Of a DNA stretch of 64,000 bases, positions 55,987 to 60,563 are shown in pieces. The notes under the pieces are model-generated. The model made no database searches. It was given only the letters and a program-made list of their open reading frames with translations, and was not told the DNA's origin. A program made the position numbers and the translations under genes. The DNA comes from Thermosynechococcus sp. (lineage in GTDB: Bacteria; Cyanobacteriota; Cyanobacteriia; Thermosynechococcales; Thermosynechococcaceae). Positions within the stretch are counted from its first letter, which is position 1; each line of letters opens with the position of its first letter. The stretch covers positions 62,001-126,000 of the forward strand of contig NZ_AP024678.1 in NCBI RefSeq assembly GCF_025999095.1, written 5' to 3'.

Positions 55987-56983
55987 TTGAACATCGTTTA
56001 CTTTGGCACACCGGAGTTTGCCCTTGCGCCCCTCCAACGCCTGTTGGCAACAGAGGTCTATCGGGTGTTGGGGGTGGTCACCCAGCCCGATCGCCGGCGG
56101 GGACGGGGCAACCAACTATCCCCTTCTCCCGTCAAGGCCTTAGCCCTTCGCCACAGGTTACCCATTTGGCAGCCCCCAACGCCTGCGTCGCGATCCGGAG
56201 CTGCCTGAAGTCTTGCGATCGCTGGCTGCTGATGTCTTTGTGGTTGTTGCCTACGGTCAAATTTTGCCCCAGTCCATCCTTGAAATTCCCCGTTACGGCT
56301 GCATCAATATCCACGGCTCACTGCTGCCGAAGTATCGCGGGGCGGCTCCGATTCAGTGGGCACTCTACCACGGCGAACAGCAAACCGGCGTGAGCACGAT
56401 GCTCATGGATGCCGGCATGGACACCGGCCCAATACTCCTAAAGCGCAAAGTAACGATTCATTTAGGGGATAACGCTGCTACCCTCAGCGCCAAGCTCAGC
56501 GAGATGGGTGCTGACCTACTGCTAGACACCTTGCAGCAACTGCCACAGCTTCAAGCCGAACCCCAAAACGAGGCTGAGGCTACCTACGCGCCCCTCATTC
56601 AAAAAAGGGACTATGCCATTGATTGGGGGCGATCGGCCCTAGCCCTCCACAACCAGGTGCGCGCTTTCTATCCCTATGCCTATACCCAGTGGCAAGGGAC
56701 ACCCTTGAAAATTTTGCAAACCTGGCCGCTGCTTCCCGAAGTGGCGGCCAAATTACCCGAACCCCTACAGTCTTATGTCGGTGAGCCTGAGGCCTCTGCC
56801 GCCCCCGGTACGGTGCTAGCCCTCATCAAGGGCTGGGGGCCAGTGGTACAGACGGGCAAGGGTCGCCTACTCCTGAGTCAAGTGCAGTTGAGTGGTCGCA
56901 AAGCGCAATCGGGGTGGGATTTTGTCAATGGGGTTCGACTGGCGATCGCCACGCAATTCGGTATTGGGCCCGCAGCTCTGTAA
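55987..56983 (+). pseudogene. fmt: methionyl-tRNA formyltransferase gene with single-base frameshift
   Basis: Two frames together make one Fmt protein. The first (TTG at 55987) gives [20 protein letters not shown] to [13 protein letters not shown] and stops at 56208. The second resumes with [20 protein letters not shown] and runs to 56983, with INIHGSLLPKYRGAAPIQWA and the catalytic Asn/His/Asp region (MDAGMDTGP). Removing one C from the run CCCCC at 56173-56177 restores [12 protein letters not shown], as expected in the family. The full-length product would be about 331 residues. The enzyme formylates initiator Met-tRNA. Either a sequencing error or a real frameshift in a C tract. Confidence 0.88.
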
Positions 56984-57053
56984 CTGAGTTTTAAGCAGGG
57001 GGGGCTTAACGTAACTAAATGTTAAGATTTTGCCGTTTTGACAGCATTTGGCC

Positions 57054-57083
57054 TTGACACCCCTCGGATTGGCTCACTACACT
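57054..57083 (+). promoter_or_regulatory. probable sigma70-type promoter of the RHH-ycf46 unit
   Basis: TTGACA (57054-57059), an 18-nt spacer and TACACT (57078-57083) form a good consensus promoter 33 nt before the RHH gene start. Another TTGACA lies at 57038. Transcription would start near 57090, at the edge of a 10-bp palindrome. Confidence 0.6.
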
Positions 57084-57091
57084 GGCACACA

Positions 57092-57101
57092 TACCTAGGT
57101 A
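57092..57101. promoter_or_regulatory. perfect palindrome TACCTAGGTA, candidate operator
   Basis: TACCTAGGTA is a perfect 10-bp inverted repeat located just downstream of the predicted -10 box and about 15 nt before the RHH-protein ATG. Ribbon-helix-helix proteins usually bind such short palindromes at their own promoter, so autoregulation is plausible but untested. Confidence 0.45.
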
Positions 57102-57115
57102 CGTCTCTAACCCCT

Positions 57116-57439
57116 ATGGAAGATAAGCAAAAGGTTACGTTGTATCTCTCCCCCGATGTGCACCGCCAGCTAAAGATTGCCGCTGTAGTCGAGCAGGAAA
57201 CAATGTCCACCCTTGCTGAGCGTGCTATTGAGTTTCTGCTGGCTCACCCAGAAGTACTGGCGGAATATGCCGAGCAAAAGCATGGCAATGTGCATCGGGT
57301 TTATCACTGCCCAGAGTGTGCCAGTGCCCTTGTCCTGCGGGGGGATGAGCTAACGGCCTTGGTCAATCAGCCCACTGTGATTGATGACGACAGCCTCAGT
57401 GTTCCTTCGCTCGCCGTCGAGTTGGTGTCTGCCCGCTAG
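57116..57439 (+). CDS. ribbon-helix-helix-like small protein
   Basis: A 107-residue protein. The N-terminal 45 residues (EDKQKVTLYLSPDVHRQLKI, then AAVVEQETMSTLAERAIEFL) have the beta strand and two helices of a CopG/ParD-type DNA-binding domain. A short Cys pair follows (YHCPECASAL), then a polar tail. It starts at the ATG 57116; the longer frame from 57038 would cross the promoter. It lies 49 nt upstream of ycf46. I infer a transcription regulator or an antitoxin-like partner. Confidence 0.65.
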   Translation: MEDKQKVTLYLSPDVHRQLKIAAVVEQETMSTLAERAIEFLLAHPEVLAEYAEQKHGNVHRVYHCPECASALVLRGDELTALVNQPTVIDDDSLSVPSLAVELVSAR

Positions 57440-57473
57440 GCCAGTGGCGGGGGTGTTGGGTCAGCCTTGCAAG

Positions 57474-57484
57474 AAGGAGGTGAT
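57474..57484 (+). promoter_or_regulatory. full-length Shine-Dalgarno sequence of ycf46
   Basis: AAGGAGGTGAT is complementary over its whole 11 nt to the 3' end of bacterial 16S rRNA. GGAGG ends 8 nt before the GTG at 57489, which settles the start of ycf46 and predicts very strong initiation. Confidence 0.85.
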
Positions 57485-57488
57485 TGCT

Positions 57489-59018
57489 GTGCAAGAAGAA
57501 TTGAGTATCCTAATCCAAGCGCAATATCCGTTGATCTACCTCCTGACCTCTGAAGAAGAGCGGGCTGAGCAGGCGATCGCCACCATTGCCCAAAGTCAAG
57601 TTGGGCCGCAAGGGCGGTCTCCCCGCAAGCTCTACATCTGGACAGTGACCCACGGCATGGTGGAGTATGGCCATCCCCGCAACAATAGTCACCACAATAC
57701 TGTCTCACCGGAAGCTGCCATTCAATGGGTTGTTCACCAACGGGAACCGGGCATCTACGTCTTCAAGGATTTGCACCCCTTCATTGATTCGCCCCCTGTC
57801 ACTCGTTCCTTACGGGACGCGATCGCTAGCTTCAAGAGCAGCCACAAAACCATTATCCTCATGTCCCCCGAAGCGGCGCAGCGAATTCCCGTTGAACTGG
57901 AAAAAGAAATCGTCGTTGTTGACTATCCCCTACCCAGTATTAACGAACTAGATGAGGTTCTCAGGCAACAGTTAGATTCCCGCGATCGCCGCCTCACCCC
58001 GGAAGCCCGGGAAAAGCTCGTCAAAGCCACCCTGGGCCTGACGCGGGATGAAGCCGAAAAAGTCTTTCGCAAAGCCAAAGTCACCGCTGGGCGGCTCACC
58101 GAAGCCGAGGTGGACATCATCCTCTCCGAGAAAAAGCAACTCATCCGCCGCAACGGCATCCTCGAATACATGGAAGTGGATGAAACCATTGATTCTGTGG
58201 GGGGCCTAGAGGAACTCAAAGTATGGTTACGTCAACGCGCCAACGCCTTCAGTGAAAAGGCTCGTGAATACGGCTTACCGCAACCGAAAGGGATGTTGAT
58301 CTTGGGTGTCCCCGGCTGTGGCAAGTCCCTCATTGCCAAAACCACCTCCCGCCTTTGGGGCTTGCCCCTGCTGCGCCTTGATATGGGTCGGGTCTATGAT
58401 GGTTCAATGGTGGGGCGATCGGAAGCAAATTTGCGCAATGCGCTGAAAACCGCTGAATCCATTTCCCCTGCCATTCTCTTTATTGACGAAATGGACAAGG
58501 CCTTTGCTGGCGGGGCAGGCTCCTCAGACTCCGATGGCGGTACCTCTAGTCGCATCTTTGGCTCCTTCCTAACTTGGATGCAGGAGAAAAAGTCTCCCGT
58601 CTTTGTCTTGGCAACAGCCAACCGGGTTGAGCGGCTCCCCGGTGAATTCTTGCGTAAGGGCCGCTTTGATGAAATTTTCTTTGTTGATTTGCCAAATGCC
58701 GAAGAGCGCAAGGAAATCTTTCGCATTCACCTCACTAAGCGCCGTCGTGAGATCGATCGCTTTGACCTAGAGCAACTGGCCAATATCTGTGATGGTTTTT
58801 CTGGTGCCGAAATTGAGCAGGCCATCATTGCTGCCATGTACGAAGCCTTTGCTCAAGGGCGGGAGTTTACCCAGTTAGACATTATTGCCGCTAGCCGTGC
58901 CACTCAACCCCTTTCCAAGACAATGCAAGAGCAGGTCACGGCACTTCGGGATTGGGCACGCCAACGGGCGCGTCCGGCGGCGGCTTCAGTGGCTGAATAC
59001 CAGCGACTGGAGTTCTGA
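57489..59018 (+). CDS. ycf46: AAA ATPase Ycf46
   Basis: A 509-residue AAA protein. The N-terminal part (about 1-235, with LIQAQYPLIYLLTSEEERAE) is a degenerate ATPase-like domain typical of Ycf46, and the C-terminal AAA module has Walker A GVPGCGKSLIAK (near 273), Walker B AILFIDEMDKAF (near 328), sensor ATANRVERLPGEFLRKGRFD and the arginine finger. Ycf46 is encoded in some plastids and, in Synechocystis, is linked to inorganic-carbon/photosynthesis regulation; its substrate is unknown. The GTG start is fixed by the strong ribosome site; the longer frame from 57381 is not real. It follows the RHH gene in the same direction. Confidence 0.92.
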   Translation: MQEELSILIQAQYPLIYLLTSEEERAEQAIATIAQSQVGPQGRSPRKLYIWTVTHGMVEYGHPRNNSHHNTVSPEAAIQWVVHQREPGIYVFKDLHPFIDSPPVTRSLRDAIASFKSSHKTIILMSPEAAQRIPVELEKEIVVVDYPLPSINELDEVLRQQLDSRDRRLTPEAREKLVKATLGLTRDEAEKVFRKAKVTAGRLTEAEVDIILSEKKQLIRRNGILEYMEVDETIDSVGGLEELKVWLRQRANAFSEKAREYGLPQPKGMLILGVPGCGKSLIAKTTSRLWGLPLLRLDMGRVYDGSMVGRSEANLRNALKTAESISPAILFIDEMDKAFAGGAGSSDSDGGTSSRIFGSFLTWMQEKKSPVFVLATANRVERLPGEFLRKGRFDEIFFVDLPNAEERKEIFRIHLTKRRREIDRFDLEQLANICDGFSGAEIEQAIIAAMYEAFAQGREFTQLDIIAASRATQPLSKTMQEQVTALRDWARQRARPAAASVAEYQRLEF

Positions 59019-59138
59019 CAAGCTTCCTTCTGTCTGCCCGGCGCAGATGGGAGAAAGACCCGACCACAGGGGTTTGGTTCGCCATAAATTGTGGTTCATT
59101 CAGTCCAATGTTTCTGTCTCAATCTGGAGGAAATCCAC

Positions 59139-59492
59139 ATGTCTCACTTCAGCACCCTGCGTACGAAAGTTACCGATGCTGAAATCTTGAAAGCATCCCT
59201 GCGGGATCTGGGCATTACGGTGAAAACCAATGCCGATGTGCGGGGCTACAACGGCCAACGCGTTCGCGCTGACATCGTCGCTGTCCTGGATGGCGAGTAT
59301 GATCTAGGCTGGTCTCGCAATGCTGATGGCACCTTTGATCTCATTGCTGACCTCTGGGGTGTGGCTAAAAAACACAACCAGACCGAGCTGATCAACTCGA
59401 TCAACCAAAAATATGCCATCAACAAAACCTTGGCTGAGGTGAAGCGCCCTGGCCTTCAGAGCGCCAACGTCAAGCTTGTGGTGCATAGCTAA
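59139..59492 (+). CDS. ycf35: Ycf35 / DUF1257 protein
   Basis: A 117-residue protein opening MSHFSTLRTKVTDAEILKAS, with VKTNADVRGYNGQRVRADIV and LGWSRNADGTFDLIADLWGV, all typical of Ycf35 (DUF1257), another gene retained in some plastids. Function unknown. The ATG has GGAGG 8 nt upstream. It lies 120 nt beyond ycf46, and an intrinsic terminator follows, so the RHH-ycf46-ycf35 set may end here. Confidence 0.92.
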   Translation: MSHFSTLRTKVTDAEILKASLRDLGITVKTNADVRGYNGQRVRADIVAVLDGEYDLGWSRNADGTFDLIADLWGVAKKHNQTELINSINQKYAINKTLAEVKRPGLQSANVKLVVHS

Positions 59493-59545
59493 TCCTGTTG
59501 CCAATTGCTTTGTACTGTCTAGCGCGCGTTCCCAAGTAATCTGCT

Positions 59546-59576
59546 GGCTGACTCCTGAGGGGTCGGCCTCTTTTTT
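59546..59576 (+). terminator. intrinsic terminator after ycf35
   Basis: A 10-bp stem GGCTGACTCC / GGGGTCGGCC (two G-T pairs) with a 3-nt loop is followed by TC and six T residues. It lies 54 nt downstream of the ycf35 stop and separates that unit from the methyltransferase gene. Confidence 0.88.
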
Positions 59577-59633
59577 ATCTCAGGATTAAGAATATGGTAT
59601 TTTGGCCATGAAGGTAACGATTGCTTGTATTGA

Positions 59634-60563
59634 TTGAGTTCTGGCCAACCGATTCAAGAACGCTTTTCTCCAGAGGCTAGGCTAGTGATTGCCAGCGGGG
59701 ATATCTGTGAGGTGGTTCGTCAGGTGCCGGATGAGGCCATGACGCTCATCTTTACGTCGCCGCCCTACAACCTCGGCAAGGCCTACGAAACGCCGGTGGC
59801 GATCGAGGACTATCTCCAAAGCCAAAGCGAAGTGATTGCTGAGCTCTATCGAGTGCTGCGGCCAGAGGGAAGTCTGTGCTGGCAAGTGGGGAATTTTGTT
59901 CAACGGGGAGAGGTTTATCCCTTGGATATTTTGTTTTATCCCCTCTTCAAGCGATTGGGTTTGAAGCTGCGCAATCGCATCATTTGGAAATTTGGCCATG
60001 GTCTCCATGCCACAAAGCGCTTTTCTGGCCGCTATGAAACGATCCTCTGGTTCACGAAGTCAGATGACTACATCTTTAATTTGGATGCGGTGCGTATTCC
60101 AGCCAAATATCCGGGGAAACGCCACTTCAAGGGTCCTAAGAAGGGCAAACCCTCGGGCAATCCCTTGGGCAAAAATCCAGCGGATGTCTGGGAAATCGTT
60201 CTTCAGGATTGGCAAGAACTGGTGTGGGATATTCCCAATGTCAAGTCCAATCATCCCGAAAAAACGTTCCATCCCTGCCAATTTCCCATTGAGTTGGTGG
60301 AGCGGTGCGTTCTTGCCCTCAGCCATGAGGGGGATTGGGTCTTTGACCCCTATATGGGGGTGGGATCATCGCTCTTGGCTGCCCTCATGCACAATCGGCG
60401 GGCGATGGGCTGTGAGAAGGAACCCGTTTATGTCAACATTGCTCGCCAACGGATTCAGGCCTATGCAAATGGCACCTTGCCCTATCGTCCCCTTGGCCGA
60501 CCGGTGTACACCCCCACAGGACGGGAGAGAATCGCGCAAATTCCTGAAGAGTGGCAACAGTGA
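59634..60563 (+). CDS. DNA methyltransferase, beta class, probably N4-cytosine
   Basis: A 309-residue methyltransferase. The catalytic motif is SPPYNLG (residues 42-48) and comes before the SAM-binding motif DPYMGVGSSL (near 237), the order of beta-class amino-methyltransferases; SPPY rather than DPPY is typical of N4-cytosine enzymes. No restriction endonuclease gene is adjacent, so it is an orphan. It may be the counterpart of the conserved cyanobacterial GGCC N4-methylase (Synechocystis sll0729 type), from memory. The start is TTG; the stop overlaps the next gene as GTGA. Confidence 0.85.
   Translation: MSSGQPIQERFSPEARLVIASGDICEVVRQVPDEAMTLIFTSPPYNLGKAYETPVAIEDYLQSQSEVIAELYRVLRPEGSLCWQVGNFVQRGEVYPLDILFYPLFKRLGLKLRNRIIWKFGHGLHATKRFSGRYETILWFTKSDDYIFNLDAVRIPAKYPGKRHFKGPKKGKPSGNPLGKNPADVWEIVLQDWQELVWDIPNVKSNHPEKTFHPCQFPIELVERCVLALSHEGDWVFDPYMGVGSSLLAALMHNRRAMGCEKEPVYVNIARQRIQAYANGTLPYRPLGRPVYTPTGRERIAQIPEEWQQ

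Follow-up and report, generated by a model that had tools for sequence, protein, structure and literature searches.

A candidate ribbon-helix-helix autorepressor and a conserved control region at the slr0373-type stress operon of Thermosynechococcus

How a cyanobacterial operon that responds to many stresses is controlled, and which protein reads its promoter, is the question raised by a locus in the window, the 64-kb stretch of DNA analysed here from a 2.50-Mb, single-contig Thermosynechococcus genome. The ribbon-helix-helix (RHH) reading frame, the AAA ATPase and DUF1257 genes, the promoter, the palindrome and the terminator-like stem all lie where the original prediction had placed them (Table 1). 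That prediction took the arrangement to be undescribed, but slr0373-slr0374(ycf46)-slr0376 is a published stress-responsive operon (PMC7496141), and the locus is identified by sequence as its Thermosynechococcus copy through the family model, gene order and the published papers; none of the loci compared was recognised as Synechocystis 6803 itself. In Synechocystis the three genes form one stress operon (PMC7496141, citing Singh and Sherman 2002 and Jiang et al. 2015). According to that paper the operon responds to shortage of iron, sulfur and nitrogen, to salt, to high light and to oxidative stress, and no other genes are induced as strongly by blue light as these three. The paper also identifies slr0374 as Ycf46; when it is inactivated, EcaB, the external carbonic anhydrase, is less active. 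The slr0373 transcript is among the most abundant mRNAs in Synechocystis (PMC3564720), and slr0376 is found mainly as a single-gene mRNA (PMC7283877). Control matters in an operon of many stresses that shows the strongest blue-light induction and whose function is given as unknown (PMC7496141). The gene content is already known; what is new is the RHH assignment of the first gene, a defined candidate operator and a corrected name for the third gene. With a candidate regulator and a defined 32-bp candidate operator that most of the class shares, the control of this operon can be tested directly.

Table 1. Coordinates of the operon, its control region and its terminator-like site within the window.
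Feature	Position	Strand	Basis
HLR1-like (RpaB-type) site TTAACATTTAGTTACGTT	57008-57025	-	14/16 consensus positions
Four tandem boxes TGCCGTTT, TGACAGCA, TTTGGCCT, TGACACCC; candidate RHH operator	57031-57062	.	Lag-8 periodicity
-35 hexamer TTGACA, overlapping the last box	57054-57059	+	Promoter scan
-10 hexamer TACACT	57078-57083	+	Promoter scan
Palindrome TACCTAGGTA at the predicted transcription start	57092-57101	.	Window count and conservation
slr0373-family RHH protein, 107 aa, C-terminal CPEC knuckle	57116-57439	+	Pfam, NCBIfam, ORF
slr0374 (Ycf46-type) AAA ATPase, GTG start	57489-59018	+	Pfam, ORF
Spacer slr0374-slr0376	59019-59138	+	Counterparts in other cyanobacteria with conserved RNA hairpins
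slr0376-type DUF1257 protein, 117 aa	59139-59492	+	Pfam, gene order, length
Terminator-like hairpin, then T run	59546-59568	+	Promoter/terminator scan

The three genes and their conservation

The first gene, predicted to encode an RHH-like protein directly before the AAA ATPase, passes both family cut-offs, narrowly for PF20605 Antitox_RHH (29.5 bits against 27.2) and with 141.1 bits against 100 for the NCBIfam equivalog NF052617, titled 'slr0373 family blue light stress response protein', which places it in the slr0373 family. The RHH fold is indicated by the PF20605 match and by a structure model with Z of about 6 to the RHH domains of PutA, CopG, NikR and Arc in a second structural comparison; RHH proteins also head the Foldseek list, none of them with an E-value better than 0.7. 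Confidence in the AlphaFold model is limited to the RHH part, with block means of pLDDT above 90 for residues 11-40 and overall values of 70.6 for pLDDT and 0.43 for pTM. Residues K6, V7, T8 and Y10 of the DNA-reading strand are invariant in an alignment of 42 sequences. Beyond the RHH fold, every RHH protein compared carries a C-terminal CxxC (61/61 and 80/80), which falls in a strand region of low model confidence, and a metal site there, if there is one, might need two chains with one CxxC from each.

The second gene carries an AAA domain (PF00004 at 4.6e-28) plus an AAA lid. Its ycf46 name is tentative: the domain and the use of Ycf46 for slr0374 in the literature agree with it, but the same genome has a second Ycf46-like ATPase (G000:C1:853730-855190, L198), 46% identical to the window ATPase, and either of the two may be the plastid ycf46. 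The third gene, which had been called ycf35, encodes a DUF1257 protein (PF06868 at 2.2e-23) but is not the best DUF1257 match of the genome, scoring 82 bits against 149 bits for a gene at G000:C1:624560 that adjoins a ferredoxin gene. As Synechocystis ycf35 and fed7 occur together among SigD-dependent transcripts (PMC8875361), the ferredoxin neighbour suits that paralogue for the ycf35 name. The slr0376 product is a cyanobacterial signature protein of 116 aa (PMC2823733), and the window gene, a DUF1257 paralogue, agrees with slr0376 both in its place in the operon and in its length, with a better ycf35 candidate elsewhere in the genome.

Both the RHH-ycf46 pair and the palindrome, on whose conservation in relatives the original prediction had staked itself, are conserved. 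The order RHH-ATPase-DUF1257 is intact in 61/61 sampled loci from many families, with the ATPase 74-100% identical. Among 80 named contigs, a set that overlaps the 61 loci in part, the ATPase stands next to the RHH gene in 74 of the 76 that are long enough, and the DUF1257 gene lies behind the ATPase in 72/72. Within the genus 11/11 genomes have the RHH family, and within the class 315/388; 17 among the 20 listed genomes without it belong to a single family (f2) of small genomes, taken for marine picocyanobacteria. In 19 genomes with no RHH gene or a weak match only, the best Ycf46 match is a 40-46% identical paralogue, of which the host genome also has one in its second Ycf46-like ATPase, so that loss of the RHH gene seems to go with loss of its ATPase. 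This distribution also bears on whether the RHH protein and its neighbour could form a type II toxin-antitoxin pair, as the antitoxin-like PF20605 match just above cut-off might suggest. Such a pair is very improbable: in all loci the RHH gene is accompanied by genes for an AAA ATPase and a DUF1257 protein rather than by an adjacent toxin gene, it is near-universal in most of the class, and where the ATPase matches PADLOC models the match is confined to the AAA domain.

In most cyanobacteria the slr0374-slr0376 spacer (L055-L104) contains a conserved hairpin CTTTCTCCTG...CAGGAGGAAAG followed by CTAGC...GCTAG, the latter with paired changes at several positions, as well as a conserved ACGTTGT leader; the Thermosynechococcus spacer has a differing form. 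The spacer hairpins were predicted earlier for Synechocystis/Microcystis (PMC2662882), and Rfam gave no credible match in 56900-59700. On the upstream side, fmt (methionyl-tRNA formyltransferase, 55987-56983) is read in two frames, split near a C run at about 56175 by a frameshift or a sequencing error, and an N6/N4 DNA methyltransferase gene (PF01555 at 9.3e-49, 59634-60563) comes after the operon on the same strand.

The control region and its candidate readers

A control region made up of a light-response site, four tandem boxes and a palindrome is kept across most cyanobacteria, judged by the striking likeness of the upstream sequences throughout the class. The consensus promoter expected before the gene set was found by scan as TTGACA-18 nt-TACACT (57054-57083), in a window where the number of promoter- and terminator-like sites is not above that of shuffles.

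The perfect palindrome at the predicted start, TACCTAGGTA, occurs once in the window (0 in shuffles) and 3 times in the 2.5-Mb genome, and is weak evidence taken alone because about 62 perfect 10-bp palindromes of any kind are expected per 64 kb (64000/4^5). Across genomes it proves position-locked: TACC[CT][AG]GGTA is present in 50/61 loci, nearly always 14-21 nt before the ATG, and the palindrome is found in 73/80 named genome contigs. Of the 61 loci, 35 have the form TACCCGGGTA, 11, each from this genus, have TACCTAGGTA, and 4 have TACCTGGGTA, with a spacing of 36-39 nt after TTGAC and few exceptions. Another copy of TACCTAGGTA at G000:C1:1779110-1779119 (L003) overlaps the start codon of an opcA-like gene behind zwf; it drifts and is not conserved within the same genus. 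The conserved position and the drifting opcA copy together rule out a chance palindrome. A palindrome regulon was rejected, as the promoter-plus-palindrome pattern gave about 25 other matches in 145 genomes against about 26 for reversed-pattern controls (counted by eye), with no excess beyond the RHH promoter. In L074, L080 and L084, and also in L169, the half-sites are kept but stand 3-4 nt apart, the split forms being TACCC-GTT-GGGTA, TACCC-CATC-GGGTA and TACCC-AAA-GGGTA. This is odd for a dimer-binding DNA site, since a rigid dimer should not tolerate a shift of 3-4 bp. The palindrome could instead act as an RNA hairpin, and in L074, L080 and L084 the split half-sites could pair as a short stem, whereas the common form TACCCGGGTA has no room for a loop.

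The four tandem 8-bp boxes, with the consensus TGCCGTCA, TGACGGCA, TACTGTCT and TGACAGCA (roughly TGMCGKCW), run into the -35 TTGACA. In 81 thinned promoters, column similarity within the array peaks at lag 8 (0.467) and lag 16 (0.497), and the lag-8 value is reached by 0/20000 column permutations, and by one at any lag from 4 to 12. Scanned with a sequence-only model of the array, each genome gives a single distinct site at E<=0.02, which lies at the RHH promoter wherever coordinates were compared; the host genome has just one site, at E 0.0055. An array regulon was rejected, no second site being found at E<=0.02 in the genomes scanned. Among 98 distinct upstream regions, the 59 with the palindrome or a one-step variant all have the array as well, and 28 of the other 39 exceed the 99.9% null for the array, with a model trained on many of the sequences tested. 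Several of the remaining regions keep boxes 1-2 as a dyad (TTGCCGTCAAGCCGGC in L178, TTGCCGTCATGACGGT in L193) with TATGAT in place of box 4, and some lineages lack boxes 3-4.

In several families the RHH gene is kept and the palindrome is absent, with the boxes present in whole or part. Given an unchanged reading strand and an element found nearly wherever the gene is, the tandem boxes fit the RHH protein better, and the palindrome is probably not its operator. Autoregulation remains the best reading of the unit, as originally proposed, with the boxes rather than the palindrome as its probable operator. That the RHH protein autoregulates through the palindrome and leaves the 8-bp boxes to another factor is unlikely. 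The position-locked conservation of the palindrome would suit this role, as would its being essentially private to the slr0373 operon when promoter spacing is included and the action of TrcR, another RHH protein, at the -10/start region (PMC10272220), but the palindrome is missing from several families in which the RHH gene persists and its reading strand is unchanged, and half-sites 3-4 bp apart in L074, L080 and L084 are ill-suited to a rigid dimer.

Upstream of the boxes, on the minus strand and about 108 nt before the ATG, lies a repeat resembling the HLR1 consensus KTTACAWW-N2-KTTACAWW (PMC13421787). Matches of at least 14/16 occur at about the same place in 71/98 promoters as against 0.56% of shuffles, and by this motif the operon is a predicted RpaB target. 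Together with the published slr0374 expression and mutant data, the HLR1-like site gives a basis to the proposed link between an AAA remodeller and photosynthesis. It is also compatible with the RHH protein being no regulator of this operon but an abundant DNA-binding or scaffold protein that works alongside the ATPase, in which case the promoter would be read by RpaB and other known regulators only. This we consider doubtful: the very high slr0373 transcript level (PMC3564720) and the CPxC tail beyond the RHH fold agree with it, but the array, dyad-symmetric and with a period of 8 bp, does not resemble HLR1, whose period is 10 bp, and the scanned genomes contain no second site for it.

A proposed model of RHH autorepression

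On balance we lean towards an RHH autorepressor of a stress-induced operon that acts via the four 8-bp boxes, with RpaB input and the palindrome as a second conserved element. From the computed genes, family, synteny, motif conservation, 8-bp periodicity and single array per genome, we infer that the slr0373 RHH protein most likely represses its own operon. RHH dimers would lie side by side on the boxes, and the occupied boxes, overlapping the -35 hexamer, would block RNA polymerase as MetJ does on met boxes. Light/redox status would enter through RpaB at the HLR1-like site, and metal or thiol state could lift repression under stress by way of the CPxC knuckle. Support for autorepression comes from the RHH family and fold, the trio kept in 61/61 and 72/72 cases and the lag-8 periodicity; from the single array per genome, as expected of a private operator; from invariant K6, V7, T8 and Y10, matching an operator kept throughout; and from the MetJ-like layout and strand, the TrcR precedent and stress induction in Synechocystis. 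Against it, some other factor could use a dyad-rich array at the -35, the MetJ layout is not a general rule for RHH operators, a very abundant slr0373 mRNA is unusual for a pure repressor, and boxes 3-4 are missing in some lineages. A more specific proposal, that slr0373 is a redox- or metal-switched RHH repressor through CPxC with one MetJ-like operator per genome, is possible and put forward tentatively. On this proposal slr0373, RpaB and the palindrome would give the cyanobacterial operon a private control region of unusual conservation, and this region would gate an AAA ATPase that is required when carbon or light conditions are stressful.

Comparison with known systems

The Synechocystis operon agrees in its three gene families and in their order, with the NF052617 match and slr0374 called Ycf46; the difference is that its papers, in the literature searched, from which subscription papers were largely absent, neither name slr0373 as an RHH protein nor describe an operator. 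As in HLR1/RpaB elements, an HLR1-like direct repeat lies upstream of the core promoter, but at about -80 to -64 it is mostly upstream of the usual activating range of -66 to -45 (PMC13421787). TrcR (Anabaena all0854) is an autoregulated cyanobacterial RHH repressor (PMC10272220) and likewise has a conserved site at its own promoter, but that site is ATACTACACTTGTATTAC and its targets are many.

The closest layout is that of MetJ of E. coli, which shares the RHH fold class, tandem 8-bp boxes with a GACGTC core and K-x-T in the DNA-reading strand. Between metJ and metB of E. coli lie four consecutive 8-bp met-box matches (AGAAGTTT, AGATGTCC, AGATGTAT, TGACGTCC), to be set beside the cyanobacterial L067 array (TGACGTCA, TGACAGCT, TGATGGCT, TGACAGCT), and the array has the tandem boxes and 8-bp period of a MetJ-type operator. 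In the strand, KKITVSI of MetJ aligns with QKVTLYL of slr0373, and MetJ reads DNA with these strand residues. The slr0373 family differs in not being a sequence relative of MetJ, no MetJ model being among its Pfam or NCBIfam matches up to E 1, and in having one target operon rather than a regulon, a CPxC tail and no support for a role of S-adenosylmethionine; the absence of MetJ among the PDB fold matches listed is uninformative, as the Foldseek E-values are all >0.5. Taken together, the comparison suggests that the slr0373 family may read DNA in a MetJ-like manner.
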